A DNA stretch of 64,000 bases from Microbacterium salitolerans (GTDB taxonomy: Bacteria; Actinomycetota; Actinomycetes; Actinomycetales; Microbacteriaceae). Shown one piece after another: positions 499 to 61,961 of this stretch (its first letter is position 1; each line of letters begins with the position of its first letter). The stretch lies in contig NZ_JAHKSH010000006.1 of NCBI RefSeq assembly GCF_019720895.1, positions 124,001 to 188,000 of the forward strand. The letters are read 5' to 3'. The position numbers and the translations under genes are program-made. The notes beneath the pieces were generated by a model. That model was not told where the DNA came from. It ran no database searches and saw nothing but the letters and a program-made list of their open reading frames with translations.

Positions 499-1461
499 TC
501 ACTCGGTCGGCTGCGCGCGCTTCACGACGAGGCGCTCGACGACGATGAGCGCGAGCACGACGAGCGCACCCACGACGGCGAGGACGATCGGCATCACAAC
601 GGGGTCGGTCGGCATCGTGAGGGCGCCATGGCCGTCCTCGCTGCCCTCGCCGCCCTGCCAGGGCCACAGCGCGCGCAGCGAGCCGAGCATGAGGCCCGCC
701 ATGATCAGCAGCGTGCCACGACGGTGGCGCTCGAGCATGACGGTCATGAACTTGACGACGGTGAAGAGCCCGAGGATCGCGCCCGCCCCGAAGACCGCGA
801 TGTAGCTGAGGACGCGATCGTCGACCGCCTGCAGCGTGGGCGCGTAGAGGCCGATGGCCAGGAGGAAGAAGGAACCGGACACGCCGGGCACGACGAGAGC
901 GCAGACCGCGACGGCCGCGGCGACGAAGACGAACCAGTACGGCGGATCCGTCATCTCCTGGTTGCTCGCGAAGCCGACGAGGAAGAAGGCGACGGCGGCG
1001 GGAACGACGAACAGCAGGAGGTCGACCGCACCGGAGACCCCCGTGCGCGTGCCCTTCGGCAGCAGCTGGAACGGCACGATGAGGCTCGCGGCGACCAGAC
1101 CGAAGAAGAGGCCGCGCGCGTTCTCGGGGTTGCTGGAGACGAGGTGCTCGACCGTGCCCGCGGCGAACAGCACCGCGACGGCCATGCCGACGAGGAGCGG
1201 GCCGACCAGCCACCAGTCGATCGCCGCCATCTGCCGTCGGAATCCCGACGCGCGGTTCGGCCCGAACACGAGCGTCTTGACGGCGACGCCGAGCTGGTGC
1301 GCGGCGCGCAGAGCGCGCTCGTAGATGCCGGTGACCAGGGCGACCGTGCCGCCCGAGACACCGGGGACGAGCTCGGCCATGCCGATGAGGAATCCGCGCA
1401 GCGCGTTGAGCGGGGTGTGCACGGCTCGGTGCGCCGGGACGTCGGCTGCGGCGTCGCTCAT
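499..1461 (-). CDS. DUF368 family polytopic membrane protein (PopT-like)
   Basis: This is a 320-residue integral membrane protein with about eight hydrophobic segments. It carries the twin family motif ELVPGVSGGTVALVTGIYE near residues 32-50, echoed by VVPGVSGSFFLLAIGLY near 190. This inverted-repeat arrangement is typical of DUF368. The family was recently identified as polyprenyl-phosphate translocases that recycle the cell-wall lipid carrier; that role is taken from the family, not shown here. The ATG at 1461 follows a GGGAGA ribosome site. A TTGTCA-N11-TAGGGT promoter (1516-1538) of the actinobacterial DNA-damage type lies about 50 nt upstream of the start. The dedA-like gene follows on the same strand, so two unrelated lipid-carrier translocase families are probably made together. 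Confidence 0.9.
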   Translation of the reverse strand: MSDAAADVPAHRAVHTPLNALRGFLIGMAELVPGVSGGTVALVTGIYERALRAAHQLGVAVKTLVFGPNRASGFRRQMAAIDWWLVGPLLVGMAVAVLFAAGTVEHLVSSNPENARGLFFGLVAASLIVPFQLLPKGTRTGVSGAVDLLLFVVPAAVAFFLVGFASNQEMTDPPYWFVFVAAAVAVCALVVPGVSGSFFLLAIGLYAPTLQAVDDRVLSYIAVFGAGAILGLFTVVKFMTVMLERHRRGTLLIMAGLMLGSLRALWPWQGGEGSEDGHGALTMPTDPVVMPIVLAVVGALVVLALIVVERLVVKRAQPTE

Positions 1462-1515: not shown

Positions 1516-1538
1516 ACCCTAATTCGCACCCCTGACAA
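1516..1538 (-). promoter_or_regulatory. PafBC/RecA-NDp-type promoter of the DUF368-dedA unit
   Basis: Read on the minus strand this is TTGTCAGGG, eight bases, then TAGGGT. It fits the published mycobacterial LexA-independent DNA-damage promoter tTGTCRgtg-N8-TAnnnT. The 12-mer TTCGTTTGTCAG at its upstream edge is shared exactly with the sites at 43272 and 53607. The predicted transcript starts near 1509, leaving a 5' leader of about 50 nt that contains the gene's ribosome site. Confidence 0.6.
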
Positions 1539-1624
1539 ACGAACGGTGGACATCCCCCGAAATGCCGTGGGGGGGGCACCTCGCAGAGATATTTCACTCA
1601 TAAAACATCTCTATCCTGTTCGTC

Positions 1625-39728: not shown

Positions 39729-42700
39729 TCACACCTGCCCGACGAGGCGGGCAAAGGCGCTGAGGCGCGCGACGGAATCGGCGTGGTACGGCAGGTCGTC
39801 GAGCAGCGCGGGGCTGTAGACGACGTGCGCGGCGACCTTCGCACGGCTGATGCCCACGTTGAGGCGATTCTGCAGCAGGAGGAACTCGGGGCCGCGCGGG
39901 GCGTCTCGACCGGATGATGCGGCGAGCGTCATGATCGCGACGGCGGCTTCCTGACCCTGGAACTTGTCGACCGTGCCGACGCGCACCTGCGGGAACCCAC
40001 CGCGCGCGAGCGTCTGCTCGACGAGCTGCTGCTGCGCGTTGTAGGGCGCGACGACGATGACGTCGCTTTGCATGATCTCGCGCGGCGACTGCGGCGTCGC
40101 CTGCTGCTCGTCGTCGATCTCGATGTCGACGAACGCGCGACCGACCGTGTCCTGCACGATGCGCAGAACGGCCTCGGCCTCTTCCGGTGACTCGGTCGCG
40201 TTTCCGCGGTGCTCGATCGGGACGGGGTGCACGCCAGGGACGACGCCCTCGATCGACCGCTGGTCCGCGCCTGCACGCGCCCGGAGCTTCCCGTTGTACG
40301 ACAGCTCGGAGACGGGGCGGGCGACGTCGGGGTGCATGCGCCAGGTCTGCGCGAGGAAGTAGCCGTGCCCGTCGGGCAGGACCGCGGATCCGCGCATGAG
40401 CCAGCCAAGTGCCGACGTGTCGATGGGCGCGGGATGCGTGCCCTGGCTGACCTGCGGGAGCTGCTGCGGATCCCCGAGGAGCAGCAGGCGGCGCGCGGAC
40501 ATCGATACTGCGATGGTCGACGCGAGCGAGAACTGGCCCGCCTCGTCGACAACGAGGAGATCGAGGGCACGACGGTCGACTCGTGTGACATTCGCCAGAT
40601 CCCACGCCGTCCCGCCGATGACGTAGCCCTTCGACCGCTGACGCTGGTAGTCGGCGAGGCCGCCGCGCGGCAGCACCGTGAAGGCCTGACCGTCGGCGCG
40701 GGCCCCGCCCTTCAGCGTCTTGGCGACGTGGCCCGCGGGAACGCCCGCCGCGACGACGCGATCGAGCATGTTCTCGACGACGGCGTGCGACTGCGCGACG
40801 ACGCCGACTTTCCACCCGTGGTCGTTCACGAGCCGGGCGATGACGTGGGATCCGACGTAGGTCTTGCCCGTGCCAGGCGGGCCCTGTACGGCGAGGTAGG
40901 TCGGAACGCTCAGCAGCGAGAAGACGATCGCGTCGATGTCGCTGCCGATCGAGGACCCGACGACGCGGCCGGAGTGATGGTCGGCGCGCAGCGTGCGGAG
41001 GATGTCGGTCGCCGGATCGATCGGGTACCCGCCGTCGGCGCGACCGACGTGGTTGTCGGCCCGGAGGAGGGTGTCGGCCCACTCGTCGATCGCCCCCTGC
41101 TGCGCCCCGGCCTTCGGCGGGGACGGCGGCGTGAGGGCGATGGGCAGCTCGCGCCACGTCTGACCCTGCACGGCGTACTCGTCGACGATCACACCATCGT
41201 CGAACACTTCGACGACGGTGACCTCGCGCGGCACGTGGATCCACCGCGGCGACGCCTCGTTCGGGAACGGCGCCGGCGCCGGGTACACCGCGTAGGGCGA
41301 GGACGCCGTTCCGAGCCGGGTACCTGGCGCGAGCTCGCCGCGCAGCTCGAGGCGCCTCCGCTCCGACCGGGATCCATCGGGGATGTGCCAGTCGTCGACG
41401 AGAGCGGAGCGGCGGATGTCGACGACGATGACGTCCTTCGTCTCGCCCCACAGCGACACGGGCTCACGCAGGCGCTCGAAGTGCGACTGCCAGAAGGATC
41501 TCGCCTCGCGAGGGTAGTAGTCGATCGCTGCCGCCGCGAGGCGGAGCGCCTGTTCGTCGTTCGATGCCGGCTCGCCCTCGGTTCGGGCGTCCCGCAGCTC
41601 GTCGGCCCGCGCCGTGAGCGCAGTCGCTCGAGGCGAGGGCTCGTAGGCGGCGGCGAGTCGGTCGTCGGGTGCGGCCGGGAGGACGCGGCTCTCGCGGGCG
41701 CGCTCGACGAGCCAGTCGCGCAGGCGCCGCGTCGAGACGCAGTCGTAGCGGTTGTAGTCGGCGAGATCGTCGAGGATCGCGTTCGCATCGTCGTCTCGCC
41801 CGCGCTCGAGGAGACTGCGCGCCTCGACGTAGCGCGCGATCGAGTCGTCACCCTTCTGCACGTCCTGTGTGCGCACGTCGCCGCCCATGTACAGCGGCTC
41901 GAGCTTCTTGATCGAGTACGACCGCGATCCCACGCGCAGCGCGTTCTTCACGATCGGATAGAGATCGACGAACAGCTCGTCGCGCAGCATGCGATCGACG
42001 TCGGCCTCGCGGACGCCGTGGCGCGCCGCCATGGCCGCGAGATGCGTCGTCTCGTACGGCGCGTAGTGGTAGATGTGCATCTGCGGGTGTGCACGCCGGC
42101 GCGCGGCGATGAAGTCGCAGAACCGCTCGAGCGCCTTCCGCTCGGCATCGAGGTCGTGGGCCCAGAGCGGCGTGTACTGCTCGCGCAGATCGACCCATCC
42201 GAACAGGTAGTCGATGCCCCACGACGTGCGCCCGTCGCTCCCCCGCTCGCTGTAGAGCGGATCGCCCTCGAAGTCGAAGAAGATGTCACCCAGGTCGGGT
42301 CGGGGCATCGCGCTGAGAGCGACCGGATTCACGACCTCGTAGAGCGGCGCGTCTGCGCGCTCGCTCTCGGTCGCCACCTGCAGACGCGCCTGCGTGCGCA
42401 GGGTCTGGAACTGGTCGTCGCTCATGCGCGGCGGCTTCTCGGCCGCCTCGGCGAGCTGCTCGATCGTCTCGATGCCGGCCGCGCGCAGGCGCTCGCGCTG
42501 CGTGGGGCGCATGCCGGCGACGAGCAGCACGTCGCGGTGCGACTGGACCTCGATCTCGCACGTCGCGCAGCGCCCGCACGCGCGCACCTCGAGGTCGCCT
42601 CGCGCTTCCCCCCACCCGAGCGGGGCGATCGCCGTGCCGCCGTCGACCCGGCGGTCGGCGACGAGCGCCCGTAGCCGAGCCCGGCGCACGTCGAACAGCG

Positions 42701-43265
42701 GGAGCAGATCGCGCACGGCGTGCGTCGATGTGGATCCGTCACCGAGCAGCAGGTCGACCTCGTCGGCACGCGGAATCCCCTGCTGGTCGAGCTGATCGAC
42801 GTATGCCGCGAGCTGCATGAGCGCGGTCACCCGAGCGGTGCGGGCGAGCTTCGTGTCCTGCACGCGCCAGCGCCCGTCGTCGTCGCGGACGAGGAAGTCG
42901 GCGAACCCGACGAAGTCGCCGCCCGCGAACGCGCCCTGGAACACCACACGCGCGTCGGGGCGCGAGAGCGCCTCCTCCGTCGCCCGCACCGCGCCGGCCA
43001 GCGCCGACGCGTCGGCCGACGATGCGCGCTCGATCTCGACGACCGCGTCGCCGTGCTGTTCGCGGAATTCCGCGAGAACCCGCGCCTCGTGCGCATCGCC
43101 CATCTCGGCGGCGCGCGCCAGCATCGCATCCTCGGGATCGTCGACCAGCTCGGACCGGCCCAGCTTCGCGTCGATCCTGCGCATCCACGCGAACTCGCAC
43201 TCGGCGGCAGCTTTGAGGTCGCTCGCACTCCAAATGAGGCGGGATTCGTCGCGGAGGATTCGCAT
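39729..43265 (-). CDS. FeS-RecB nuclease / YprB / UPF1-type helicase fusion (TM0106 family)
   Basis: The product is 1178 residues in three parts. First is a RecB-like PD-(D/E)XK nuclease (1-280): VGFADFLV and VQDTKLAR give the metal-binding Asp and D-x-K, and Cys near 23 plus ACGRCATCEIE near 235 give the four iron-sulfur cysteines. Next is a YprB-type RNase H-like domain (about 325-530) with FFDFEGDP and HIYHYAPYETTHLAAM. Last is an SF1B helicase: GPPGTGKTYVG near 797, VVDEAGQF near 908, GDPQQLPQ, and NRLNVGISRAK near 1136. The promoter at 43272-43294 is of DNA-damage type and leaves only 6 bases before the ATG, so the message is leaderless. A repair role is likely; its substrate is unknown. 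Confidence 0.9.
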   Translation of the reverse strand: MRILRDESRLIWSASDLKAAAECEFAWMRRIDAKLGRSELVDDPEDAMLARAAEMGDAHEARVLAEFREQHGDAVVEIERASSADASALAGAVRATEEALSRPDARVVFQGAFAGGDFVGFADFLVRDDDGRWRVQDTKLARTARVTALMQLAAYVDQLDQQGIPRADEVDLLLGDGSTSTHAVRDLLPLFDVRRARLRALVADRRVDGGTAIAPLGWGEARGDLEVRACGRCATCEIEVQSHRDVLLVAGMRPTQRERLRAAGIETIEQLAEAAEKPPRMSDDQFQTLRTQARLQVATESERADAPLYEVVNPVALSAMPRPDLGDIFFDFEGDPLYSERGSDGRTSWGIDYLFGWVDLREQYTPLWAHDLDAERKALERFCDFIAARRRAHPQMHIYHYAPYETTHLAAMAARHGVREADVDRMLRDELFVDLYPIVKNALRVGSRSYSIKKLEPLYMGGDVRTQDVQKGDDSIARYVEARSLLERGRDDDANAILDDLADYNRYDCVSTRRLRDWLVERARESRVLPAAPDDRLAAAYEPSPRATALTARADELRDARTEGEPASNDEQALRLAAAAIDYYPREARSFWQSHFERLREPVSLWGETKDVIVVDIRRSALVDDWHIPDGSRSERRRLELRGELAPGTRLGTASSPYAVYPAPAPFPNEASPRWIHVPREVTVVEVFDDGVIVDEYAVQGQTWRELPIALTPPSPPKAGAQQGAIDEWADTLLRADNHVGRADGGYPIDPATDILRTLRADHHSGRVVGSSIGSDIDAIVFSLLSVPTYLAVQGPPGTGKTYVGSHVIARLVNDHGWKVGVVAQSHAVVENMLDRVVAAGVPAGHVAKTLKGGARADGQAFTVLPRGGLADYQRQRSKGYVIGGTAWDLANVTRVDRRALDLLVVDEAGQFSLASTIAVSMSARRLLLLGDPQQLPQVSQGTHPAPIDTSALGWLMRGSAVLPDGHGYFLAQTWRMHPDVARPVSELSYNGKLRARAGADQRSIEGVVPGVHPVPIEHRGNATESPEEAEAVLRIVQDTVGRAFVDIEIDDEQQATPQSPREIMQSDVIVVAPYNAQQQLVEQTLARGGFPQVRVGTVDKFQGQEAAVAIMTLAASSGRDAPRGPEFLLLQNRLNVGISRAKVAAHVVYSPALLDDLPYHADSVARLSAFARLVGQV

Positions 43266-43271
43266 GCCTCA

Positions 43272-43294
43272 ACGGTAATTCCGACCCCTGACAA
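43272..43294 (-). promoter_or_regulatory. PafBC/RecA-NDp-type promoter of the nuclease-helicase
   Basis: On the minus strand TTGTCAGGG, eight bases, TACCGT. It shares the 12-mer TTCGTTTGTCAG with the sites at 1516 and 53607 and has the same 11-base gap between hexamers. The -10 box ends 6 bases before the ATG. Confidence 0.68.
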
Positions 43295-43341
43295 ACGAAG
43301 AGCCCGCGAGCTCGCCACAAGAAGGTGCGAGACTGGCCCTC

Positions 43342-45399
43342 GTGACCGAGTTCGATTTCCGCAGCGCCTACCGCCACGGCTTCGCCCGCGTCGCCGCGTG
43401 CCATATCCCCGTCGCCGGCGCCGATCCCGCGACCAACGCGCAGCACGTGCTCGACACCGCCCGTCGTCTCGACGACGATGCCGTCGCCGTCGCCGTGTTC
43501 CCCGAGCTCTGCCTGTCGGGCTACGCCATCGACGACCTCGTCATGCAGGACGTCCTACTCGACGGCGTGCGTGCGGCGATCGAAGAGATCCGCGAGCATT
43601 CCGTGTGGATCGTGCCGATGCTCGTCGTCGGTGCCCCCCTGCTGCATCGCGGGCGCCTCTACAACTGCGCCGTCGCGATCCACCGCGGCAGGATCCTGGG
43701 TGTCGCACCGAAGTCGCACCTCCCCACCTACCGCGAGTTCTACGAGCGCCGCTGGTACGCGCCCGGCGACGATCAGCGCGGCACGATCCGCCTGGCGGGC
43801 GCGGACGTCCCGTTCGGGCCCGACCTGCTCTTCGAGGCGACCGACGTGCCGGGGCTCGTCGTGCACGCCGAGGTGTGCGAAGACATGTGGGTGCCGGTGC
43901 CGCCGTCGTCGCTCGCCGCACTCGCGGGTGCGACCGTGCTCCTCAACCTCTCGGGCAGCCCCATCACGGTCGCGCGCGCCGACGACCGGAAGCTGCTCGC
44001 GCAGTCGGCGTCCGCTCGGTGCCTCGCCGCCTACGCCTATGCGGCGGCCGGGCTCGGCGAGTCCACGAACGATCTCTCGTGGGACGGCCAGACGATGATC
44101 TTCGAGGGCGGATCCCTCCTCGCCGAGACCGAGCGATTCCCGCAGACCGCCACGTCCTCGATCGCCGACGTCGACCTCGACCGCCTGCGGCAGGACAGGA
44201 TCCGCCAGGGCACGTTCGACGACAACCGCCGCGCCCACGCCGACGCGACCGACTTCCGCCGCGTGAGCTTCGAGCTGAAACCGCCGCACGGCGACATCGG
44301 TCTGCGTCGCCATGTCGATCGCTTCCCCTTCGTGCCCGACGACGCGGGCCGCCTCGCGCAGGACTGCTATGAGGCGTTCAGCATCCAGGTCGCGGGTCTC
44401 GTCCAGCGCATGACCGCGATCGGATCCCCGAAGCCCGTCATCGGCGTGAGCGGAGGCCTCGACTCGACGCACGCGCTGCTCGTCATCGCGAAGGCGATGG
44501 ATCTCATGGGCCGGTCGCGCAGCGAGATCCTCGCCTACACGATGCCGGGATTCGCGACCTCCGATCACACGAAGTCGAACGCCATCGCTCTCGCGACATC
44601 GGTCGGCGCGACCATCGAGACGATCGACATCCGCCCCGCCGCGACCGAGATGCTGCGGCAGATGGACCACCCCGCCGGATCCGGCGATCCCGTGTACGAC
44701 GTCACATTCGAGAACGTGCAGGCCGGGCTCCGCACCGACTACCTGTTCCGCCTCGCGAACCATCACGGCGGCATCGTCGTCGGCACGGGCGACCTGTCGG
44801 AGTTCGCACTCGGCTGGGCGACGTACGGCGTCGGCGACCAGATGAGCCACTACGTCGTCAACAGCGGCGTGCCGAAGACGCTCATCCAGCACCTCATCCG
44901 CTGGGTCATCTCGGAGGGCGACGCGCAGGGTGTGAGCCCCGACGAGGTCCAGGTTCTGCAGTCCGTCCTCGACACCGAGATCAGCCCCGAACTCGTCCCC
45001 GCGGGTCAGGACGGCAAGGCGCAGTCGACCGAGGACGCGATCGGCCCGTACGCGCTGCACGACTTCACCCTCGCCCACGTGCTGCGGCACGGATCCCGCC
45101 CCACGAAGATCGCGTTCCTCGCCGCGCACGCGTGGGAGGACGCGGAACGCGGCGAGTGGCCGCCCGGGTTCCCCGAGGGATCCCGTCCCGAGTACGACCT
45201 CGACACGGTCGTGCGCTGGCTGCGGGTGTTCCTCCAGCGCTTCTTCGGCTTCGCGCAGTTCAAGCGCTCCGCGGTGCCGAACGGACCGAAGGTCTCGCAC
45301 CTCGGATCCCTGTCGCCCCGCGGCGACTGGCGTGCCCCCAGCGACGGCAACGCGCGCGCCTGGCTCGCGGAGCTCGATCGCGGGTTCCCTCAGAAGTAG
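43342..45399 (+). CDS. nadE: Glutamine-dependent NAD+ synthase
   Basis: The product is 685 residues, the long two-domain form seen in actinobacteria. The N-terminal glutaminase (nitrilase fold) has the Glu-Lys-Cys triad in FPELCLSGY (about 54), APKSHLPTYREF (about 124) and HAEVCEDMWVP (about 178). The synthetase domain has the ATP pyrophosphatase loop VSGGLDSTHALL (about 369-376) and later GTGDLSEFALGW. Ammonia from glutamine amidates nicotinate adenine dinucleotide. The GTG at 43342 has no ribosome site; GAGACT 7 bases upstream may be its -10 box. Confidence 0.96.
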   Translation: MTEFDFRSAYRHGFARVAACHIPVAGADPATNAQHVLDTARRLDDDAVAVAVFPELCLSGYAIDDLVMQDVLLDGVRAAIEEIREHSVWIVPMLVVGAPLLHRGRLYNCAVAIHRGRILGVAPKSHLPTYREFYERRWYAPGDDQRGTIRLAGADVPFGPDLLFEATDVPGLVVHAEVCEDMWVPVPPSSLAALAGATVLLNLSGSPITVARADDRKLLAQSASARCLAAYAYAAAGLGESTNDLSWDGQTMIFEGGSLLAETERFPQTATSSIADVDLDRLRQDRIRQGTFDDNRRAHADATDFRRVSFELKPPHGDIGLRRHVDRFPFVPDDAGRLAQDCYEAFSIQVAGLVQRMTAIGSPKPVIGVSGGLDSTHALLVIAKAMDLMGRSRSEILAYTMPGFATSDHTKSNAIALATSVGATIETIDIRPAATEMLRQMDHPAGSGDPVYDVTFENVQAGLRTDYLFRLANHHGGIVVGTGDLSEFALGWATYGVGDQMSHYVVNSGVPKTLIQHLIRWVISEGDAQGVSPDEVQVLQSVLDTEISPELVPAGQDGKAQSTEDAIGPYALHDFTLAHVLRHGSRPTKIAFLAAHAWEDAERGEWPPGFPEGSRPEYDLDTVVRWLRVFLQRFFGFAQFKRSAVPNGPKVSHLGSLSPRGDWRAPSDGNARAWLAELDRGFPQK

Positions 45400-45419
45400 G
45401 GCGCGCCCTCCCGCGCTCG

Positions 45420-45440
45420 CGAACCGCCGGCGCGGTTTCG
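45420..45440. terminator. Hairpin after nadE
   Basis: AACCGC and GCGGTT pair around CGGC, inside an outer GGGCGCGC (45399-45406) and GCGCGCCC (45444-45451) pair. It lies between convergent genes. Confidence 0.55.
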
Positions 45441-45482
45441 CCCGCGCGCCCGGCCGGCTCCTGGCGGCAGCCCGCTCAGGTG

Positions 45483-45917
45483 TCAGTCGTCATCATCATC
45501 GTCGTCGTCATCCCCGTCATCGTCCCAGTCGTCGTCATCATCGTCGTCGTCGTCCGGCGCGGGTGCGGGAGCGGGCGGCGGCGCGGGCGCGGGGTCAGGA
45601 GCGGGCGCAGGATCCGGCTGCGGGGCGGGTTCCTGCGGCTGCGAGCCGCCGTCGTCCTTCTTCGCGTCGTCCTTCGTCGGCGTCGGCGTGGGGGTCGGCG
45701 TCGGCGTCGGGGTGCGCTCCCGCTCGACGTCGCGCGTGGCGCGGGACGTCGCCGTGTCGGCGGAGTTCTCCGTGCCCGTGATCGCGCCGCCGTCGATCAG
45801 CTGCCCCGCGTCGGTACGCAGCTCGAAAGCATGCGCCGCCGCGATCGCGCCCGTGCCGAGCACGCCGACGCCGAGCACAGCCACTGCCGTGTATGCGATC
45901 CACTTCTTTCCGGCCAT
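45483..45917 (-). CDS. Exported or membrane-anchored protein with proline-rich stalk and poly-aspartate tail
   Basis: The product is 144 residues. It has a basic start and a membrane segment (about 8-30, AVAVLGVGVLGTGAIAAAHA), a short folded-looking region, then a Thr-Pro repeat (about 70-84), a Pro/Ala/Asp stalk and a tail of nearly 25 residues made mostly of Asp. The tail could bind Ca2+ or other cations outside the cell; this is inference. The ATG at 45917 follows GGGAGGAGAAGG. It is divergent from a two-component system (46056 on), the same layout as the acidic lipoprotein at 11788. I recognise no family. Confidence 0.75.
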   Translation of the reverse strand: MAGKKWIAYTAVAVLGVGVLGTGAIAAAHAFELRTDAGQLIDGGAITGTENSADTATSRATRDVERERTPTPTPTPTPTPTKDDAKKDDGGSQPQEPAPQPDPAPAPDPAPAPPPAPAPAPDDDDDDDDDWDDDGDDDDDDDDD

Positions 45918-46055
45918 GGCCCCTTCTCCTCCCGCGGTTTCGGGTTCCCGCGATGACCACCACTTCACACGATGCCCGTAATGCCGTCGCCAAGCGAGTA
46001 TGAGAACGGTCTTATCGGCGCACGCGCTGCAGGTCCGACGACGATACTGGATCGT

Positions 46056-47714
46056 GTGAGTCCGACCACCGAGGAGACGCCGCGGCGACGGCGCATGCCC
46101 GTGATCTCGGTGCGCGTGCGACTCGTCGTCGCGATCGTCATCTCGGTCGCTCTCGGACTGCTCGCCGTCGGCGTGACGGTGTACATCGTCGAGCGCGAGC
46201 GCAAGCTCACCGAGATCGATCTGCGGCTGAAAGACAATCTGAACTCGGCGCGCTTCGTCGTCGAGGACGGGGTGGGCGGCGAACCATGGCCCTCATCGGA
46301 GGCCGCCCTCGACGCCGTCGTGCAGCGGCTGAGCCCGGACGACAACACCGGCTCCGTCGGCATCTGGGACGGACAGGCCCAGAGGGTGCCCGGCGTACCG
46401 CTGGACGTGGACCTCGTGAACGATGCGCCCGGCTTCGTCGACCACGTCGTCTCGGTCACCGACCAGGCGGGCGCGGTGATCGGCGCCACCTACGCCGAGG
46501 AGGGCGTGCTCTGGCGGTACATGGCCGTGCCGATCGAGGTCCCCGACTCTCCGCCGCCCGAGTCGGCGCTGTTCGTCATGGCATTCGACGTCGATGCCGA
46601 GCTCGCCGAGATCAACGACGCCGGGGGCTGGTACCTCATCGTGTCGGGTGTCGTGCTGGTCGCGGTCGGCGCGATCTCGTTCATCGTCGCCGGGCGTCTG
46701 CTTCGCCCTCTGCGCCTCATGCGGCAGACGGCCGAGCGCGTCTCCGCGCAATCGCTGAAGGAGCGCCTGCCGATCGACGGCCACGACGACGTCTCGCAGC
46801 TGGCGCGCACGATGAACGACATGCTCGACCGCCTCGACACCTCGCTCGAATCGCAGAAGCAGCTGCTCAGCGATGTCCGCCACGAGCTGCGCACGCCGAT
46901 CACGATCGTGCGCGGCCATCTCGAGCTGATGGATCCAGAGGATCCGCAGGACGTGCGCGACACCCAGGAGCTCACGATGGACGAGCTCGATCGTATGAAC
47001 GCGCTCGTGCAGAACCTGTCGGAGGCGGCGTCGCTCCACGGCCCGTCGCCTCTGCAGCGCGTCGCAGTCGACGTCGGCGACCTCATGGAGCAGGTCGTGC
47101 GCAAGACGCAGGCGATCGCGGGCGCCGATGTCTCCCCCGGACCGTGCGTGGCGCTCGTTGCCGAGCTCGACCCGGCGCGCATCACGCAGGCGGTCCTGCA
47201 GCTCGCTCAGAACGGCGTCACCCACGGTGGCGGCCAGCTCGTGATCGGCAGCAATCTCTCCGGCTCGCACCTCGAGATCTGGGTGCGCGACTACGGACCC
47301 GGTGTCCCGGACGATTCGAAGCAGGCGATCTTCGACCGGTTCCAGCGCGGATCCTCGTCGGGCGCCCCACGTGACGGCGGCAGCGGACTGGGGCTCAACA
47401 TCGTGCAGATGATCGCGCGCGCCCATGAGGGATCCGCGCGCGTCATCGACGCGACGGACGGGCCCGGCTCGGTCTTCATCGTGTCGATCCCGCTCGACGA
47501 GGCGACCACGACGTCGTCGGTGTCGTACGCGCCCGTCGACGACGCCCCGCGTTCCGACCCGGCGCCGCGCGAGCCGCTCACTCCGACAGGTGCAGTCGAT
47601 ACGATCGTCGTGCCGCCACGACCGCCTCTCCCAGGGCCGGGCGGACAGGTTCCGACGGCGCCGATCCCCCTCGTCCCGGATCCTTCACGCACCACCGACC
47701 GCACCGAGGAGTGA
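46056..47714 (+). CDS. Sensor histidine kinase with extracellular sensor domain
   Basis: The product is about 552 residues. One membrane helix (about 20-42) and a sensor domain of about 150 residues outside are followed by a second helix (about 200-225) and HAMP (RLLRPLRLMRQTAERVSAQS). The H-box is LLSDVRHELRTPITIVRGHL (His near 275), and the ATPase has LAQNGVTHGGG, RDYGPGVPDD and GGSGLGLNIVQMI. After about 490 there is a long Pro-rich disordered tail. A GTG at 46056 is 7 bases after GATACT, suggesting a leaderless start; an upstream ATG at 45972 would add 28 residues. Confidence 0.9.
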   Translation: MSPTTEETPRRRRMPVISVRVRLVVAIVISVALGLLAVGVTVYIVERERKLTEIDLRLKDNLNSARFVVEDGVGGEPWPSSEAALDAVVQRLSPDDNTGSVGIWDGQAQRVPGVPLDVDLVNDAPGFVDHVVSVTDQAGAVIGATYAEEGVLWRYMAVPIEVPDSPPPESALFVMAFDVDAELAEINDAGGWYLIVSGVVLVAVGAISFIVAGRLLRPLRLMRQTAERVSAQSLKERLPIDGHDDVSQLARTMNDMLDRLDTSLESQKQLLSDVRHELRTPITIVRGHLELMDPEDPQDVRDTQELTMDELDRMNALVQNLSEAASLHGPSPLQRVAVDVGDLMEQVVRKTQAIAGADVSPGPCVALVAELDPARITQAVLQLAQNGVTHGGGQLVIGSNLSGSHLEIWVRDYGPGVPDDSKQAIFDRFQRGSSSGAPRDGGSGLGLNIVQMIARAHEGSARVIDATDGPGSVFIVSIPLDEATTTSSVSYAPVDDAPRSDPAPREPLTPTGAVDTIVVPPRPPLPGPGGQVPTAPIPLVPDPSRTTDRTEE

Positions 47715-47717
47715 CAC

Positions 47718-48380
47718 GTGGCTTCGATTCTCATCGCCGATGACGAGGCGCGCATCGCCGGATTCATCGAGAAGGGACTCAAGGCGGCTGGTTTCGCGAC
47801 GCGCGTCGCCGGGACGGGCACCGAGGCCCTCGCCCTCGCCCAGACCGACGAGTTCGACCTCCTCGTGCTCGACGTGAACATGCCGGGCATGAGCGGCTTC
47901 GACGTGCTCGAGCAGCTGCGCGGTCAGGGCTCCCGCATGCCGATCATCATGCTGACGGCGCGCACCGACCTGAACGACACCGTCGCCGGGCTCGAGGGCG
48001 GCGCCGACGACTACCTCGGCAAGCCGTTCCGGTTCGACGAGCTGCTCGCGCGGATCCGTCTGCGCATGCGCAAGACCGACGAGAGCCCGACGAGCACGGA
48101 GCTGCGGCACCGCGATCTGTCGCTCGATGTGCGCACGCGTCGCGTGATGATCGACGGGGGCGAGAGCATCGAGCTGTCGGCGCGCGAGTTCGCCCTGACG
48201 GAGGAGCTCATTCGTCACGCGGGCATGGTGCTCAGTCGCGAGCAGCTGCTGAGCCGCGTGTGGGGGTACGACTTCGATCCCGGATCCAACGTCGCCGACG
48301 TGTACATCGGGTATCTGCGCCAGAAGCTGGGCGCCGACCGCATCGAGACGGTGCGCGGCGCGGGGTACCGGCTGGCGTGA
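47718..48380 (+). CDS. Response regulator, OmpR type
   Basis: The product is 220 residues. The receiver has Asp near 51 (LLVLDVNMPGMSG), MLTARTD and LGKPF. The winged helix has LSAREFALTEELIRHAG and GSNVADVYIGYLRQKLGADR. The GTG at 47718 follows GAGGAG, 3 bases after the kinase stop. With the kinase it forms a classic pair whose nearest candidate target is the Asp-tailed exported protein at 45483. Confidence 0.93.
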   Translation: MASILIADDEARIAGFIEKGLKAAGFATRVAGTGTEALALAQTDEFDLLVLDVNMPGMSGFDVLEQLRGQGSRMPIIMLTARTDLNDTVAGLEGGADDYLGKPFRFDELLARIRLRMRKTDESPTSTELRHRDLSLDVRTRRVMIDGGESIELSAREFALTEELIRHAGMVLSREQLLSRVWGYDFDPGSNVADVYIGYLRQKLGADRIETVRGAGYRLA

Positions 48381-48399
48381 CGCCGTTCGTGCGCGGTCG

Positions 48400-49008
48400 T
48401 CAGGCCTGGCGGGCGTTGTAGACGACGGTGTCGCCGGCGTCGACCGCGTCGCGGTAGTGCTGGAAGACGCGCACGGCGTCGGCCTTCGCGACGTCGAGGG
48501 TGACGGCGATGCCGCGCTCCTCGAACGCCTCGACCCATGTCTCGATCATGGGCCCCTCGTCGAAGGTCGTGAGTTCTTCGCACTCGGGTCCGTGGCCCGC
48601 GAGGACGAGCGAGGTGATGCCCGACCACATGGCGGCGCCGTAGCACTGCACGCAGGGACGCCAGTTGACGACGAGCTCATGATCGGGAAGCCCCGCCCCG
48701 CCGAGATCCCACGTGCTGAGGCGCGCCTGGGCGGTGCCGAGAGCGGTGACCTCGGCGTGACCCGACGACACGTTGGCGGCGAGCACGACGTTGACGCCGA
48801 CGGAGACGATGCGTCCGGTCTCGCGCTCGGCGACGAGTGCGGCGAAGGGGCCGCCGTTGCCCTCGCGCCAGTTGCGATCGGCGAGGCGGTTGACGAGGGC
48901 GACGCGGTCGTCCAGGGACGGGATCACGTCGGGGAGGTCGGCGAGCTCGTCGTTCAGCCAGGCGGGCAGGGCGAGGGTGAACGAGGTCGCGAGCGGCGGG
49001 AAGTTCAT
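48400..49008 (-). CDS. Nucleoside/guanine deaminase-like protein
   Basis: The product is 202 residues with a cytidine-deaminase-like fold. The zinc site is SSGHAEVTALGTAQ (His-Ala-Glu) and NWRPCVQCYGAAMWSGI (Cys-x-x-Cys). GGPFAALV matches the substrate-entry stretch of guanine deaminases of the GuaD/TadA superfamily. An extra N-terminal 40 residues is present. Substrate specificity cannot be read directly. It is convergent with the response regulator after 19 bases. Confidence 0.85.
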   Translation of the reverse strand: MNFPPLATSFTLALPAWLNDELADLPDVIPSLDDRVALVNRLADRNWREGNGGPFAALVAERETGRIVSVGVNVVLAANVSSGHAEVTALGTAQARLSTWDLGGAGLPDHELVVNWRPCVQCYGAAMWSGITSLVLAGHGPECEELTTFDEGPMIETWVEAFEERGIAVTLDVAKADAVRVFQHYRDAVDAGDTVVYNARQA

Positions 49009-49078
49009 GCCGTCAGGGTACGCGGCGCATGTTTCGCGGAGTCGCGCGTCGCGGGTCCGTGCGAGCGGGATCCGCCGG

Positions 49079-49282
49079 TCAGGATTCCCGGGACCGGAAG
49101 ATCGAGCGCAGGACGAGGAAGACGATGAGGGCGACGACTGCGACGATGGCGAGCTTGAACGCGAACCAGATGACGGAGAAGAGGACGTTCACGAGCCAGA
49201 AGGCGATGACGACCGCGACGATGACGCCGAGAATGGTCCAGATCGTGTTCTTGTTCATGTGTCTATCTTGTCGCAGTTTCAT
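49079..49282 (-). CDS. Small two-helix membrane protein after sbcC
   Basis: The product is 67 residues from the ATG at 49282, which overlaps the sbcC stop (ATGA); a shorter 59-residue form would start at ATG 49258. It contains two hydrophobic helices: TIWTILGVIVAVVIAFWLV, then the FAFKLAIVAVVALIVFLVL region, with a basic tail. No ribosome site is evident, so coupling to sbcC is likely. I recognise no family and its function is unknown. Confidence 0.65.
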   Translation of the reverse strand: MKLRQDRHMNKNTIWTILGVIVAVVIAFWLVNVLFSVIWFAFKLAIVAVVALIVFLVLRSIFRSRES

Positions 49283-52200
49283 GACTGGTGGACGGTGCTC
49301 CAGCCCTGCGGCTGCTGTGTGACGCGGAGCTGAGCGGGGATCTGCTCTTTCATCGTCTCGACGTGGCTGATGACGCCGATGGTGCGCCCGCCCTGGCGGA
49401 GTTCGTCGAGCGTCCGCATCGCCACGTCGAGAGTCTCGCCGTCGAGAGAACCGAAGCCTTCGTCGATGAAGAGCGTATCGAGGTGGATCCCGCCCGCGCG
49501 CCCGGTGACGACCTCGGCGAGGCCGAGCGCGAGAGCCAGAGAGGCGAGGAAGGTCTCGCCGCCGGAGAGGGAGTGCGGCGGGCGGGCCTGACCGGTGTAG
49601 CGGTCCATGACCTCGATGCCCAGCCCCGACGCGGCGCCGCGACGCGCGAGCGCGTCGGTGTGCTGGAGGGCGTAGCGCTCGTTCGACATGTCGGCGAGGC
49701 GCGCGTTGGCGGCCTCGACGATCTCTTCGAGCTCCGCCGCGAGCACGAACGTCTCGAGGTTCATGCGCTTCGTGTTGTGTGCTCGGCCCGCGATGGCATC
49801 GGCGAGGCGCGCGGTGGCCTCGGCTTCGCGCGCGGCCTCGGCGACCTCGGCATGGGCGGCCGTCGCGCGCTCCGCGGCGCCGCGGAGCGCGTCGGACACG
49901 CGACGGGCGGCGCTTCGCGCGTCGACGGCGTCGTCGTACGCCTGCTGGGTGGCGGCGAGCGCCTGCTCGGGGACGGTGAGGTCGACGAGCTCGTCGGGCA
50001 GGTCGAGGGGCGCGAGCTCGTCGAGTGCGCCCTGGGCCGCGATGCGGGCCGCGTCGGCATCGGCGAGGACGCGCTCGAGTTCGGTGCGCGTCTCGGAGGA
50101 GCGTCGGGCGGCGCGGGCCAGGGCGCCGCTGGCGAAGTCGGCGTCGGCGAGGGCGGTCTGGAGTTCGGCCGCGCGCGCCTCGCGATCGGCCTCGGCCCGG
50201 ACGGATTCGCGGGTCGCGTCGACGAGCGTGCTGGCTCGGGAGGCGAGGCGCTGGGCGGCGCCGATGCGCGCGGCGACGGAGTCGAAGGATCCGCGGGCCG
50301 CACGCACGGCGGCGCGGTGCTCGGCGAGCTCGCGTTCGGCCGCGGTGATCGTCGCCCGGAGGGTGCTGCGATCGCTCTCGAGCTGCGTCGTCTTGTCGGC
50401 AAGGGCGTCGCGGTCGGCGGCGAGGGCGTCACGCTGGCGCTCGAGCTCGGCCTTCTCCTTCGCGGCGGTCTCGGCGTCGGCGAGTCGGTCGCGTGCGGAG
50501 AGGAGGTCGCCGCTGATCTCGACCTCGGTGCGGCCGCCGGCCCGCTCTTCTGCGGCGCGGAGGTCGACCTGCACGGCCTGACGCGCGGCGGAGGCCTTCT
50601 CGTCGGCGGCGACGGCCGCGGCGCGCGATGCCTCGGCGTCGTCGATCTCGTCGGGCGTGACGTGGTCGTCGGCGAGCGGGGCGAGCGTGGGGTGGGTCGT
50701 GGATCCGCACACCGCGCAGGCGTCGCCGGGGGTGAGCTGCGAGGCGAGCTCGCCGGCGTAGCCCGCGAGGCGGCGGGCGTGGAGCGCACTGAGGGCGACT
50801 TCGGCATCGCGTCGCGCGCGGGTCGCGTCCTGGGCGGCCGTCTGTGCGGCCGCGTACTCGGTGCCGAGGCGCGAGATTTCGCCGAGGGCCGCGAACTGCT
50901 GTTCGAGCTGATGGATGTGCGCTTCGACGGCCTCGCGTCGCGCGGCGCGCTCGGCGGCGACGTCGATCGCCGTCTGGTTGGCCGCGATGCGTTCGGGCAG
51001 AGCGGCCCGCCGCTCGGCGAGGGCGGTGATCTCGTCGGCGCAGGCGGCGAGGTCCTGGCGCGTGCGGTCGAGGCGCGCGGTCTCGTCTTCGAGCAGGGTC
51101 TCGATGTCGCGCGCGATCTGCCACGTGCCGATGCGAGTGTTGGTCGCGTCGACGAAGGTATCGAAGGCGTCGAGGGCGTCGGGTTCCCGGCCGAATGCGG
51201 GAAGGTCGACGTCGTCGCCGACTGCCGCCGTCGCGCCGGACGCGGGGCCGTCGTCGCCCTCGCGTCGGTGCTCACGCAGCGCTTCGCCCCAGGCGCGGCG
51301 CGCCTCGCTCATGACGCCTGCCGTACCGCGGGCTGAGTCTTCCGCGCGGGCGACGGCGTCGAGGAGGTGCGCGACGGTCTCGGCGCGCCGTGCGGCGTCG
51401 AGCTCGGCACGCTGGGCGTCGAGCTCGGTCCGGCGCGCGTCGAGGGCCGTGAGCTGTTCGCGTGCGGTGTCGCGGCGGCGCTGCGCGTCTCGGGTCTCGC
51501 GCTGGCGATCGCGTGCGGTCTCTGCCGACGTGCGCTGAGCGCGGGCGGTCTGCTCGGTGTCGTCGGCTGCGGCAGCGAGCTCGACGGCGCGTGTGGCGGC
51601 GGCGTCGAGGCGCGCAAGCCTGCTCTCGCTCGTCTCGTCGGCCGGCACGTCGGATACGGTCGTACCGTCCGTGGGCGCGGCCCCATCATCGTCGCCGCGC
51701 TCCCCTGCGGGCTCACGATCGGCGGGGGCCGACTCGTCGTCGGTCGCGGCGACGCCCGCGTCCTCCACGCGTGCGATATCGCCGTGCGCCTGGTCGAGGA
51801 TCGCGCGCAGCGTCTCGACGCGGGAGCCGACGCGGGCGGCCTGCTGCTTCTTGCGTTCGTCGAACGCCGCTTCGTAGTCCTGGAAGCGGCGTGTGCCGAA
51901 GAGGGTGCGGAGGAGCTTCTGGCGGTCGTCGTTCTTCGCGAGGAGGAATCGAGCGAAGCGGCCCTGCGCGAGGAGGATCACCTGCAGGAACTGCTGCTGG
52001 TTGAGGCCGACCACGTCGCCGATCAGGTGCCCGGCTTCGACCGCTCGACTGGCGCGTCCGATCCATTCGCCGTCGACCTGTTCGAAGACCTCGACCTTGG
52101 CTGGGGCGGTGGTCGTGCCGGTGCCGCGCATCTTGGGTCGCTCGTATTCGGGACTGCGCTCGACGCGCCACCGTGTTCCGTCGACGGAGAACTCGACCGC

Positions 52201-52437
52201 GACCTGCGTGGGTTCACCGGGTTCGGCGTGGTCGCTGCGGTATCTCTGATCGCCGCCGTCGTAGCGCGGGGTGGATCCGTAGAGCGCGAAGCAGACGGCG
52301 TCGAGGATGCTCGATTTGCCCGTTCCGGTGCGTCCGGCGATGAGGAAGATGCCGTCGGACGCGTAGTGGTCGAGGTCGACCGTCTGCGCCGAGCGGAACG
52401 GACCGAACCCCTCGATCTCGATGCGGTGGATCCTCAT
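49279..52437 (-). CDS. sbcC: Exonuclease subunit SbcC (Rad50-like)
   Basis: The product is 1052 residues. The Walker A is LIAGRTGTGKSSILDAVCFA (about 32-51), and the Q-loop region is FLQVILLAQGRFARFLLA. Two long coiled coils flank the zinc hook CAVCG (about 574-578). The C-terminal lobe carries the signature SLSGGETFLASLALALG (about 955) and Walker B TLFIDEGFGSLDGE. With SbcD it opens hairpins and processes double-strand ends. The ATG at 52437 overlaps the sbcD stop (ATGA). Confidence 0.95.
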   Translation of the reverse strand: MRIHRIEIEGFGPFRSAQTVDLDHYASDGIFLIAGRTGTGKSSILDAVCFALYGSTPRYDGGDQRYRSDHAEPGEPTQVAVEFSVDGTRWRVERSPEYERPKMRGTGTTTAPAKVEVFEQVDGEWIGRASRAVEAGHLIGDVVGLNQQQFLQVILLAQGRFARFLLAKNDDRQKLLRTLFGTRRFQDYEAAFDERKKQQAARVGSRVETLRAILDQAHGDIARVEDAGVAATDDESAPADREPAGERGDDDGAAPTDGTTVSDVPADETSESRLARLDAAATRAVELAAAADDTEQTARAQRTSAETARDRQRETRDAQRRRDTAREQLTALDARRTELDAQRAELDAARRAETVAHLLDAVARAEDSARGTAGVMSEARRAWGEALREHRREGDDGPASGATAAVGDDVDLPAFGREPDALDAFDTFVDATNTRIGTWQIARDIETLLEDETARLDRTRQDLAACADEITALAERRAALPERIAANQTAIDVAAERAARREAVEAHIHQLEQQFAALGEISRLGTEYAAAQTAAQDATRARRDAEVALSALHARRLAGYAGELASQLTPGDACAVCGSTTHPTLAPLADDHVTPDEIDDAEASRAAAVAADEKASAARQAVQVDLRAAEERAGGRTEVEISGDLLSARDRLADAETAAKEKAELERQRDALAADRDALADKTTQLESDRSTLRATITAAERELAEHRAAVRAARGSFDSVAARIGAAQRLASRASTLVDATRESVRAEADREARAAELQTALADADFASGALARAARRSSETRTELERVLADADAARIAAQGALDELAPLDLPDELVDLTVPEQALAATQQAYDDAVDARSAARRVSDALRGAAERATAAHAEVAEAAREAEATARLADAIAGRAHNTKRMNLETFVLAAELEEIVEAANARLADMSNERYALQHTDALARRGAASGLGIEVMDRYTGQARPPHSLSGGETFLASLALALGLAEVVTGRAGGIHLDTLFIDEGFGSLDGETLDVAMRTLDELRQGGRTIGVISHVETMKEQIPAQLRVTQQPQGWSTVHQS

Positions 52438-53600
52438 CGTGCGGCCTCCCCGGCGTGCGCGGAGAGCACCTCGGCGACGAGGTCGCGCTCGTGTTCTGTA
52501 GGCCCTTCGCCGTCGCGCACGAGGTCGAGGAAGTCGTCGACGATCTGCGGATCGGGCGTCTCACGAGTGACGCGGTCGCGGTAGGTCCGCGTCGACGCGT
52601 CGCTGCGCCGTTCGGGGTCGGGCTGGATCGTCGCGCAGTGAGGAAACCGCGCCTTGAGTTTGCGCATCGGTTCGTGCGGCGGCGTGGCGTCGGTGAGGAT
52701 CGCGCACACCCAGTCGTCGATGTGCGTCGCGAATCGATCGTCGTGCAGCAGGTCGTCGAGCGTGCCGCGCAGGGTGACGAGGCGGCGCGGCACGGGCAGA
52801 TCGAGCCACTCGACGGAGGCGAGGCCGGTGCCATCGAGGTCGACGAGCCAGGATCCGCGTGGTCTGTCGCTCTCGCCGAAGCTGTAGTGCAGGGGCGCGC
52901 CTGCGTACCGAACGCGTTCCGACAGGCGCGAGCGGCCGTGGATGTGCCCGAGGGCGACGTAGTCGGGCCCGTCGAAGTCGGAGAGCGGCACGACGTCGAG
53001 GGATCCCTGCCGCAGGTCCTGCCGGATCTCGCGTTCGACACCGGGGGTCGGTTCGACGCCTGCCGCGAAGCAGTGCGCCATGACGACGGAGCGCCCGCCG
53101 CGCGCGGATCGGTCGGCGTCGACGAGCGACATGGCGTGGCGCATGACCTGCTCCTGCGTGCGCAGGGCCTGGTCGGGCCAATGGTGCCGCACGAGCGCGG
53201 GCTCGAGGTACGGGATTCCGTAGATGTGCACCGGGCCGTGAGCGTCGTCGAGCGTGATGGGCGTGCCCACGGCCAGCGGATCCGTCACGACGTGCACGCC
53301 GGCGCGCCCGAGGAAGGGCGCCTGGAACCCGAGCCGGGCCGCCGAATCGTGGTTTCCGCTCGTGATGACGACGCGCGCGCCGGCATCGCGGATGCCCATG
53401 AGCACGTCGGTCAGCAGCCGATAGCAGTCGGCCGCGGGCGTCGCAGAGTCGAACACATCCCCCGCGACCACGACCACGTCGACGCCGTGCTCCTCGACCT
53501 GCCCGACCAGGGCATCGAGAACCCCACGCAGCGCGTCAAGCGTGGAGTGACCGTGAAACGACCGGCCGATGTGCCAGTCGGAGGTGTGCAGGATCCGCAT
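52434..53600 (-). CDS. sbcD: Exonuclease subunit SbcD (Mre11-like)
   Basis: The product is 388 residues. The metallophosphoesterase motifs are HTSDWHIGRSFHG (residues 5-17), VVAGDVFDSA, TSGNHDSAARL, VVMAHCFAAG and ALGHIHGRS, all metal ligands present. A capping domain and a C-terminal domain follow. The ATG at 53600 has only 6 bases between it and the -10 box of a DNA-damage-type promoter, so the message is leaderless. It is the first gene of an sbcD-sbcC-small membrane protein operon. Confidence 0.96.
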   Translation of the reverse strand: MRILHTSDWHIGRSFHGHSTLDALRGVLDALVGQVEEHGVDVVVVAGDVFDSATPAADCYRLLTDVLMGIRDAGARVVITSGNHDSAARLGFQAPFLGRAGVHVVTDPLAVGTPITLDDAHGPVHIYGIPYLEPALVRHHWPDQALRTQEQVMRHAMSLVDADRSARGGRSVVMAHCFAAGVEPTPGVEREIRQDLRQGSLDVVPLSDFDGPDYVALGHIHGRSRLSERVRYAGAPLHYSFGESDRPRGSWLVDLDGTGLASVEWLDLPVPRRLVTLRGTLDDLLHDDRFATHIDDWVCAILTDATPPHEPMRKLKARFPHCATIQPDPERRSDASTRTYRDRVTRETPDPQIVDDFLDLVRDGEGPTEHERDLVAEVLSAHAGEAAR

Positions 53601-53606
53601 GACATC

Positions 53607-53629
53607 ACGCTAGGGCGAACGTCTGACAA
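53607..53629 (-). promoter_or_regulatory. PafBC/RecA-NDp-type promoter of sbcDC
   Basis: On the minus strand TTGTCAGAC, eight bases, TAGCGT, with the shared upstream TTCGTTTGTCAG. Spacing between hexamers (11) and distance to the ATG (6) equal those of the nuclease-helicase promoter. Confidence 0.68.
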
Positions 53630-53709
53630 ACGAAGAACGGATCACAACGGACTGCTGCACGGACATGGGACATACCCACGTGCCCCTCTCTCGTGTAGGA
53701 GACCCCCGT

Positions 53710-60816: not shown

Positions 60817-60857
60817 CGTTCTCCTGTCGTCGTTGACATGGGGGGCGGTGCGGTGAC

Positions 60858-60895
60858 GCCGCGGGGCTCCGGCTCCCGCCGACGTGCCCCGCGGC
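60858..60895 (-). terminator. Intercistronic hairpin between the transporter and hydrolase genes
   Basis: GCCGCGGGGC (60858-60867) and GCCCCGCGGC (60886-60895) form a 10-base stem in the 86-base gap after the YjfF-like gene. It may partly terminate or protect the upstream mRNA segment. Confidence 0.5.
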
Positions 60896-60902
60896 ACCGC
60901 GG

Positions 60903-61961
60903 TCAGGTCTGTCTGCGTCGCCGCGCGGTGACGAGGCGCTGCAGCAGCACGAAGGCGAGCAGGATCCCGCCCGTGATGATCGTGAGCATCTCGGGGCGGA
61001 TGCCGCCGTCGCGGGTGATCAGCACGTTCATGAGGCCCAGCACGATCGCTCCGACGACCGAGCCGAGGACGTACCCGGCGCCGCCCGTCAGCAGCGTTCC
61101 GCCGATGACGACGGCGGCGATCGCGTCGAGCTCCCAGCCCGTGCCCGTGATGTTCTGCGCGATGCCGAGACGCGCCGTGTACACGACCGCTGCGAGCCCG
61201 GCGAGGGCGCCGCTGATCACGTACACCGAGAGCCGCGTGCGTCCCACCGGCAGCCCCATGAGGGATGCCGAGTGCGCGGATCCGCCGATCGCGTAGACCG
61301 TGCGGCCCGTACGCGTGCGGTGGAGGACGAAGAACGCCGCGACCACCACGAGGAGGGTGATGAGCACGCTCGGCGTGATGACGAGATCGTTGACCTTCGG
61401 CCCGTCGATGATCTTCCATGGCTCCGAGAGGAACAGGAACGACGAGTCGTCGGGCAGGCGCTCCGGCGTCGTGCTCAGCATCGATGCGAGACCGCGGGCG
61501 AGGAACATCGTCGCGAGCGTCGCGATGAACGGCTGCACCCGGAAGTACTGGACCAGCGCGCCCGAGATGCACCCGAAGGCGGCGCCGATCGCGACCATGA
61601 TCACCATCGTGAGCCAGGGATTCCACCCCGCGCTGACGAGGATCACTCCGGCCACGCTCGAGAACGCGACGATCGCGCCGACCGAGAGGTCGATGCCGCC
61701 CGTGATGATCACGAAGGTGAGACCGACGGCGAGGAGGATCAGGTGCGCGTTGTTGATGAGCAGGTTCGACAGCGTGCTCATCTGGAGGATCCGGCCGTAC
61801 TGGATCTCGCCGAACGCGAGCATCAGCACGAGCAGGAGCAGGGCGGCGGCCGTGGGCAGCGCCGAGGGATTGAGCTGAAGCAGGCGGCCGGCGTTCCAGC
61901 CGGGCTTCTCCGTGTGCGTGGCCGGCGCCTCGAGCGCGCTCTGACTGCTGCGCGACATCAT
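60903..61961 (-). CDS. Sugar ABC transporter permease, YjfF-like
   Basis: The product is 352 residues with about ten membrane helices. ITGGIDLSVGAIVAFSSVAG and YAIGGSAHSASLMGLPVGRT, then ELDAIAAVVIGGTLLTGGAG, follow E. coli YjfF closely. YjfF and YtfT are the paired permeases of the galactofuranose/arabinofuranose importer YtfQRT-YjfF. The ATG at 61961 overlaps the stop of the YtfT-like gene (ATGA). Pairing with GH43 enzymes supports a furanose substrate. Confidence 0.9.
   Translation of the reverse strand: MMSRSSQSALEAPATHTEKPGWNAGRLLQLNPSALPTAAALLLLVLMLAFGEIQYGRILQMSTLSNLLINNAHLILLAVGLTFVIITGGIDLSVGAIVAFSSVAGVILVSAGWNPWLTMVIMVAIGAAFGCISGALVQYFRVQPFIATLATMFLARGLASMLSTTPERLPDDSSFLFLSEPWKIIDGPKVNDLVITPSVLITLLVVVAAFFVLHRTRTGRTVYAIGGSAHSASLMGLPVGRTRLSVYVISGALAGLAAVVYTARLGIAQNITGTGWELDAIAAVVIGGTLLTGGAGYVLGSVVGAIVLGLMNVLITRDGGIRPEMLTIITGGILLAFVLLQRLVTARRRRQT

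Follow-up and report, generated by a model that had tools for sequence, protein, structure and literature searches.

Within the 64-kb stretch of DNA analysed here (the window), the minus-strand element at 43272 is very probably a promoter of the RecA-NDp type under PafBC control, which would raise the amount of a DNA2-like enzyme. We have high confidence that the promoter is real and of the PafBC type; a DNA-damage role of the helicase–nuclease downstream of it is likely, judging from sequence. Read on the minus strand from 43294 to 43272, the element is TTGTCAGGGGTCGGAATTACCGT, followed by 6 bases and then by the ATG at 43265. The promoter and its gene comprise the following features:

43272..43299, minus strand: PafBC-type promoter (sequence, pattern scans, start offset of 6)
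43295-43299, minus strand: TTCGT extension of the helicase–nuclease promoter
43284-43294, minus strand: -26 element TTGTCAGGGGT of the helicase–nuclease promoter
43272-43277, minus strand: -10 box TACCGT of the helicase–nuclease promoter
39729..43265, minus strand: helicase–nuclease of the TM0106 family (TIGR03491), 1178 aa (profile searches, alignment)

With only 6 bases between the -10 box and the ATG, the helicase–nuclease message is probably leaderless, and its transcription start is predicted at or adjoining the ATG. The pattern TTGTCR-N11-TAnnnT has only three strict matches in the window (1516, 43272 and 53607), against a mean of 0.05 in shuffled sequence, and at least three matches occurred in 0 of 100 shuffles. 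The 12-mer TTCGTTTGTCAG is common to all three copies, and the longer TTCGTTTGTCAGGGGT to those at 43272 and 1516. A preliminary description of this DNA had claimed a RecA-NDp/PafBC-type sequence with its -10 box 6 bases before the ATG, the same 12-mer core and spacing ahead of sbcDC and DUF368, and a number of gene-start copies too high for chance; all three claims hold. The other two copies and their genes are as follows:

53607..53634, minus strand: promoter element ahead of sbcD, TTCGTTTGTCAGACGT-N6-TAGCGT (pattern scans)
52434..53600, minus strand: sbcD, exonuclease subunit (profile search)
49279..52437, minus strand: sbcC-like gene, with a 4-base overlap with sbcD
1516..1543, minus strand: promoter element 54 bases ahead of DUF368 (pattern scans; not conserved at orthologs)
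499..1461, minus strand: DUF368 / polyprenyl-phosphate transporter-like gene (profile search)

The sbcC-like gene and sbcD are presumably in one operon, and the DUF368 gene is followed by a partial DedA-like frame (named by eye). The helicase–nuclease and sbcDC are near neighbours in the window (39729-53600), both with the promoter. The large protein encoded further along, at 58570-61968, combines a glycosyl hydrolase 43 region with a laminin-G-like domain and with atrophied bacterial Ig domains.

The helicase–nuclease consists of an Fe-S RecB/PD-(D/E)XK nuclease, an RNase_H_2/YprB-like DEDD exonuclease domain and a UPF1/DNA2-like SF1B helicase, with Pfam matches to PDDEXK_1, RNase_H_2 (PF13482) and AAA_11/AAA_12. 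It scores 144.1 bits against TIGR03491 over residues 116-519 (curated cut-off, 97.45 bits). In an alignment of the enzyme with 13 relatives (14 rows), the RecB nuclease residues H59, D123, D137, K139, Q151 and Y155 are invariant, as are the cysteines C230, C233 and C236; C23 is conserved wherever the rows reach it (11 of 14; 3 start later). The four iron-staple cysteines and the RecB nuclease motifs fit a bacterial DNA2-like helicase–nuclease. D331, E333, D434 and D508 are also invariant (Y504-N-R-Y-D508 in this protein) and, in our assignment, fit the residues of a DEDDy-type exonuclease. The helicase motif residues G798, K801, D907, E908, Q1103 and R1141 are invariant in the alignment. The AAA_11/AAA_12 matches and the nearest solved structures by sequence, SMUBP-2 and DNA2, point to an SF1B helicase as the C-terminal part. 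The nearest named ortholog is that of Microbacterium suaedae (87%). From the description in the paper on the Geobacillus enzyme Bad, we infer that the protein belongs to the second (Mycobacteria/Rhodococcus) class of bacterial DNA2-like enzymes.

An enzyme of this kind could also be a restriction-like defence against foreign DNA that a PafBC-dependent promoter merely switches on upon damage, a reading that we consider unlikely. The helicase part does resemble Mokosh MkoA/MkoC; however, the best PADLOC stretches lie within that part (residues 898-1145 for MkoA/MkoC), and those neighbouring frames that were scanned showed no Mokosh partner. The authors of the Bad study suggest a restriction link in Geobacilli from a neighbouring methyltransferase (PMC7430649), whereas the few neighbouring frames scanned here contain no methyltransferase or defence module (4 of 8 frames in one scan were without a family). 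Three DUF222 genes share the promoter, which would suit a defence role, but sbcD lies within 30 kb of the helicase–nuclease in 8 of the 12 genomes, our own included, that carry both on one contig; in 6 further genomes the two are on different contigs. The proposal of the preliminary description that the helicase–nuclease is a repair enzyme of the PafBC regulon is supported, at the level of sequence, by the element, a fused PafBC, the sites at repair genes and the footprint at orthologs.

Across the genome, 3.46 Mb in 21 contigs, there are 20 strict TTGTCR-N11-TAnnnT sites, versus 7 for the reversed pattern. Because these 20 sites resemble each other far beyond what the pattern demands, we also used an extended form, TTCGTTTGTCAGRGGT-N6-TAGnnT. 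Allowing at most 3 mismatches, it has 29 matches in the genome and 0 when reversed; as this form was taken from the data themselves, the reversed control carries weight and the raw count does not. The combined lists hold 31 sites, 18 of them on both, 2 on the strict list only and 11 on the extended list only. At 22 of the 31, the chosen start codon lies 5-9 bases past the -10 box, so most such messages would be leaderless.

Target families were assigned by profile search of the frames after the sites, many of which are cut at the locus end. Genes of DNA replication, repair or segregation follow 12 of the 20 strict sites, a count over sites and not a formal enrichment test over all genes. Their products are an AlkZ-like glycosylase, LigA, RecA, FtsK, XseA, a PcrA-like helicase, HolB, DnaX, UvrB, SbcD, the TM0106-type helicase–nuclease and a RadA-like protein, which we named from its domain set. 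The preliminary description had expected sites at recA, ruvC, uvrA and other repair genes. This is borne out for recA and extends to uvrB, pcrA, ligA, xseA and sbcD; ruvC and uvrA are not among the families assigned to sites, although their upstream regions were not inspected separately. The remaining 8 strict sites precede ClpX, DUF501, a glutaredoxin-domain frame, DUF368, a LacI-type regulator and three frames without a clear family (L007, which has one match below its cut-off, L010 and L017). The site at the LacI-type regulator fits the consensus worst by eye and is probably a chance match. Since some strict sites precede genes without an evident repair role (LacI-type regulator, DUF501 and DUF368), the element alone is no proof of repair function. 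The 11 extended-only sites precede three DUF222 genes, RmuC, a SprT-like protein, a DEAD helicase, a glyoxalase, a class II tRNA synthetase, L030 (without a family), L047 (without a clear family) and L042.

In four of these cases (L007, L010, L017 and L047), a PafBC-type promoter lies right at the start of a gene without a clear Pfam family, and the products are candidate new damage-response proteins. Downstream of L030 come an IMS-family polymerase and a PHP-domain DNA polymerase III alpha-type protein. This operon-like row (L030 / L055), which resembles imuA-imuB-dnaE2, has the -26 half TTCGTTTGTCAGGGGT in front of it, but no TA -10 box follows at the customary distance.

The enzyme has a match in 39 of the 60 genomes of the same family, our own included. 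Loci were obtained for 29 of the 38 matching relatives, the other 9 being partial, split or weak matches that were left out. In 19 of the 29, a correctly oriented TGTCR-N11-TAnnnT is found in the 150 bases ahead of the gene (antisense 0, reversed 0), versus 0 occurrences on both strands of the 190,820 bases inside the 29 orthologous genes; the motif is rarer inside genes than at their starts. For one of the 10 family orthologs without the strict element, the contig extends just 112 bases upstream of the gene. A wider search gave 107 relatives with a match, 65 of which were examined (28 loci and 37 stretches). Across all sampled families of the class, the element lies within 200 bases upstream in 44 of 94 relatives (antisense 1, reversed 0), a set that leaves out the genome's own locus and one relative whose match starts at residue 300. 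It is present in 28/41 members of family f1, 10/15 of f10, 3/3 of f4, 2/2 of f2 and 1/1 of f42, and the strict form is absent from f23 (0/10), f26 (0/17) and five single-member families (0/5). Thirteen loci outside the 94 have the element at 6 of 7 that are Microbacterium-like and at 0 of 6 others. A binomial estimate for this ortholog footprint treats relatives as independent and is indicative only. One Microbacterium-like copy of the enzyme (L090, 62% identity), with the promoter element, is on a contig titled Planococcus, which is possibly mislabelled or contaminated.

PE genes, which are mycobacterial, were found in 15 of 15 f10 genomes tested versus 0 of 5 others, in a search whose control list also matched in E. 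coli; from these genes, f10 is Mycobacterium-like. In f23 and f26, recA carries the strict element within 400 bases (9/10 and 16/17, respectively), and its absence at the helicase–nuclease in these families is thus gene-specific. When either T or C is allowed as the first -10 base after TGTCRG-N10, all 17 f26 loci have the element, as CAnnnT at the same spacing (antisense 0, reversed 0), a post hoc result, as the pattern was loosened first, from species related to each other. It suggests a variant promoter at the f26 helicase–nuclease. The same genomes have CAnnnT at the helicase–nuclease versus TAnnnT at recA (16/17). In f23 the element is absent from the helicase–nuclease even with the looser -10 (0/10).

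The strict element precedes 15 of 26 sbcD orthologs (three partial or weak matches left out), with the start 6-7 bases past the -10 box in 12 of these 15. DUF368 is not supported as a conserved target, with 0 of 5 orthologs (one weak match left out), in matches that begin inside the protein and leave the true starts uncertain.

Taken more broadly, it is rather probable that the actinobacterial DNA2-like class is a dedicated damage-response enzyme. PafBC would induce it from a leaderless promoter in Mycobacterium-like genomes and in the Microbacterium-like family to which the window belongs, and from the -10 variant with C for T in a further family. By contrast, it is very improbable that the element is merely a promoter of strong housekeeping (sigma-A) type, widespread in this GC-rich family and unlinked to DNA damage. 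It does have an ordinary TAnnnT -10 box, and a few sites precede non-repair genes, but the TTGTCR hexamer ends 11 bases ahead of the -10 box and not at -35, and there are only 20 strict sites in 3.46 Mb, 12 of which fall at replication, repair or segregation genes. In the 60 family genomes, our own included, TGTCRGNGG-N7-TAnnnT matches 837 sites and its reversed form 28; 57 of the 60 genomes exceed their own control, and the median is 13 sites per genome. The nadE gene has the element in 0 of 12 relatives, a weak control in which most relatives supplied a distant paralogue (29-71% identity) and from which 17 partial or weak matches were left out.

The PafBC-type reading of the promoter calls for a regulator, and pafBC is present as one fused gene. 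WYL domains occur twice in the genome, both within this one reading frame of 660 aa, which has an HTH_PafC domain, two WYL stretches and a WCX domain and has tatC 0.3 kb downstream. Residues 8-651 of the frame match the fused PafBC in PDB 6sj9 (E 3.4e-65). It is highly doubtful that the element instead serves a different regulator of similar specificity. In M. smegmatis, ClgR is described as recognising this same P1 motif (PMC5656591), and the WYL protein SiwR likewise acts at -26 (PMC10693628), but a search for WYL domains found no protein in the genome other than the fused PafBC, and SiwR is described as binding an imperfect palindrome (PMC10693628), whereas the present element is not palindromic.

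A LexA-type DNA-binding domain is also present in the genome. No LexA-type box (CGAAC-N4-GTTCG) with up to one mismatch was found within about 200 bases of the helicase–nuclease promoter, which agrees with its earlier description as LexA-independent, and LexA control of this gene is not supported. None was found near the sbcD or DUF368 sites either in the target-locus scan, which does work, as recA gave a perfect box. The same scan placed one-mismatch boxes near recA, lexA and two DUF222 genes. Of the three DUF222 genes with the PafBC-type element (L029, L037 and L045), L037 and L045 have a one-mismatch LexA-like box nearby and are possibly under dual control. A relaxed 16-mer LexA scan (3 mismatches) gave 85 matches in the window versus 48.6 expected, a number that no shuffle reached; given these 85 matches, the one at 43340-43355, 75-90 bases upstream of the helicase–nuclease, has little weight.

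We propose that, upon DNA damage, single-stranded DNA would bind the WYL domains of the fused PafBC, which would join sigma-A RNA polymerase and read the -26 element TTGTCAGGGGT instead of a -35 box. Transcription would then start from the TAnnnT -10 box, and the promoter would raise the amount of the actinobacterial DNA2-like enzyme. In this enzyme, a predicted SF1B (5'-3') helicase is joined with an Fe-S RecB nuclease and a DEDD-type exonuclease domain. It would most likely act at broken forks or double-strand breaks, trimming flaps or ends.

A conserved PafBC-type promoter on what is probably the actinobacterial DNA2-like class makes a repair role directly testable and, if true, the damage-response reading would give a cellular role to enzymes reported without a known one. 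The analysis also outlines a PafBC regulon with one fused regulator in a Microbacterium-like genome. A literature search for PafBC and Microbacterium together found no paper, and searches on the TM0106/TIGR03491 family and on PafBC with Dna2 found nothing on a link between them. The kind of system is already known; what is new is the predicted membership of the helicase–nuclease, whose ortholog may already be listed in the published M. smegmatis PafBC regulon.

In M. smegmatis, the protein of MSMEG_1252, a 'DNA helicase', is lowered 1.5-fold in a delta-pafBC strain (PMC5656591), and this gene might be the ortholog of the helicase–nuclease. The RecA-NDp consensus is given as tTGTCRgtg-N8-TAnnnT (PMC5656591), and in M. 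tuberculosis, where PafBC-dependent damage induction is reported, as TGTCGG-10N-TA-3N-T (PMC8151990). Single-stranded DNA is reported to activate PafBC, which joins sigma-A polymerase and reads the -26 motif (PMC11804915, PMC6789036), and fused forms are known from Arthrobacter, Kocuria and Thermobifida (PMC6789036). The present system shares with the mycobacterial one the -26 element, the spacing, the -10 box, recA as a target and the presence of PafBC. It differs in its preference for TTGTCAGRGGT with a TTCGT extension, in its single fused PafBC chain and in that most targets look leaderless.

The TM0106-type enzymes, called poorly studied in the preliminary description, are less so than claimed, since Bad of Geobacillus stearothermophilus, an enzyme of the same layout, has been purified and reported to have an Fe-S cluster and nuclease and 5'-3' helicase activity; the claim stands insofar as the authors report the physiological role of such bacterial enzymes as unknown and suggest restriction (PMC7430649). 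The same paper places a second class of such enzymes in Mycobacteria and Rhodococcus. Compared by description, Bad, whose accession is given there as WP_053413574, likewise has an Fe-S RecB nuclease in front and an SF1B helicase behind and is similar in size (1245 versus 1178 aa), but its central domain is called unlike anything known (PMC7430649), whereas the enzyme here has an RNase_H_2/YprB-like middle (PF13482). The TIGR03491/TM0106 match, over the curated cut-off, covers the nuclease/exonuclease part and not the helicase. Eukaryotic DNA2 (PDB 5ean, 5eaw and 5eax) is similar in helicase sequence and, by motif order and not by alignment, H59, D123, D137-K139 and Q151 correspond to its His164, Asp278, Glu299-Lys301 and Gln314 (PMC4716839); DNA2, however, is not bacterial, and no DEDD-type domain is described for it.
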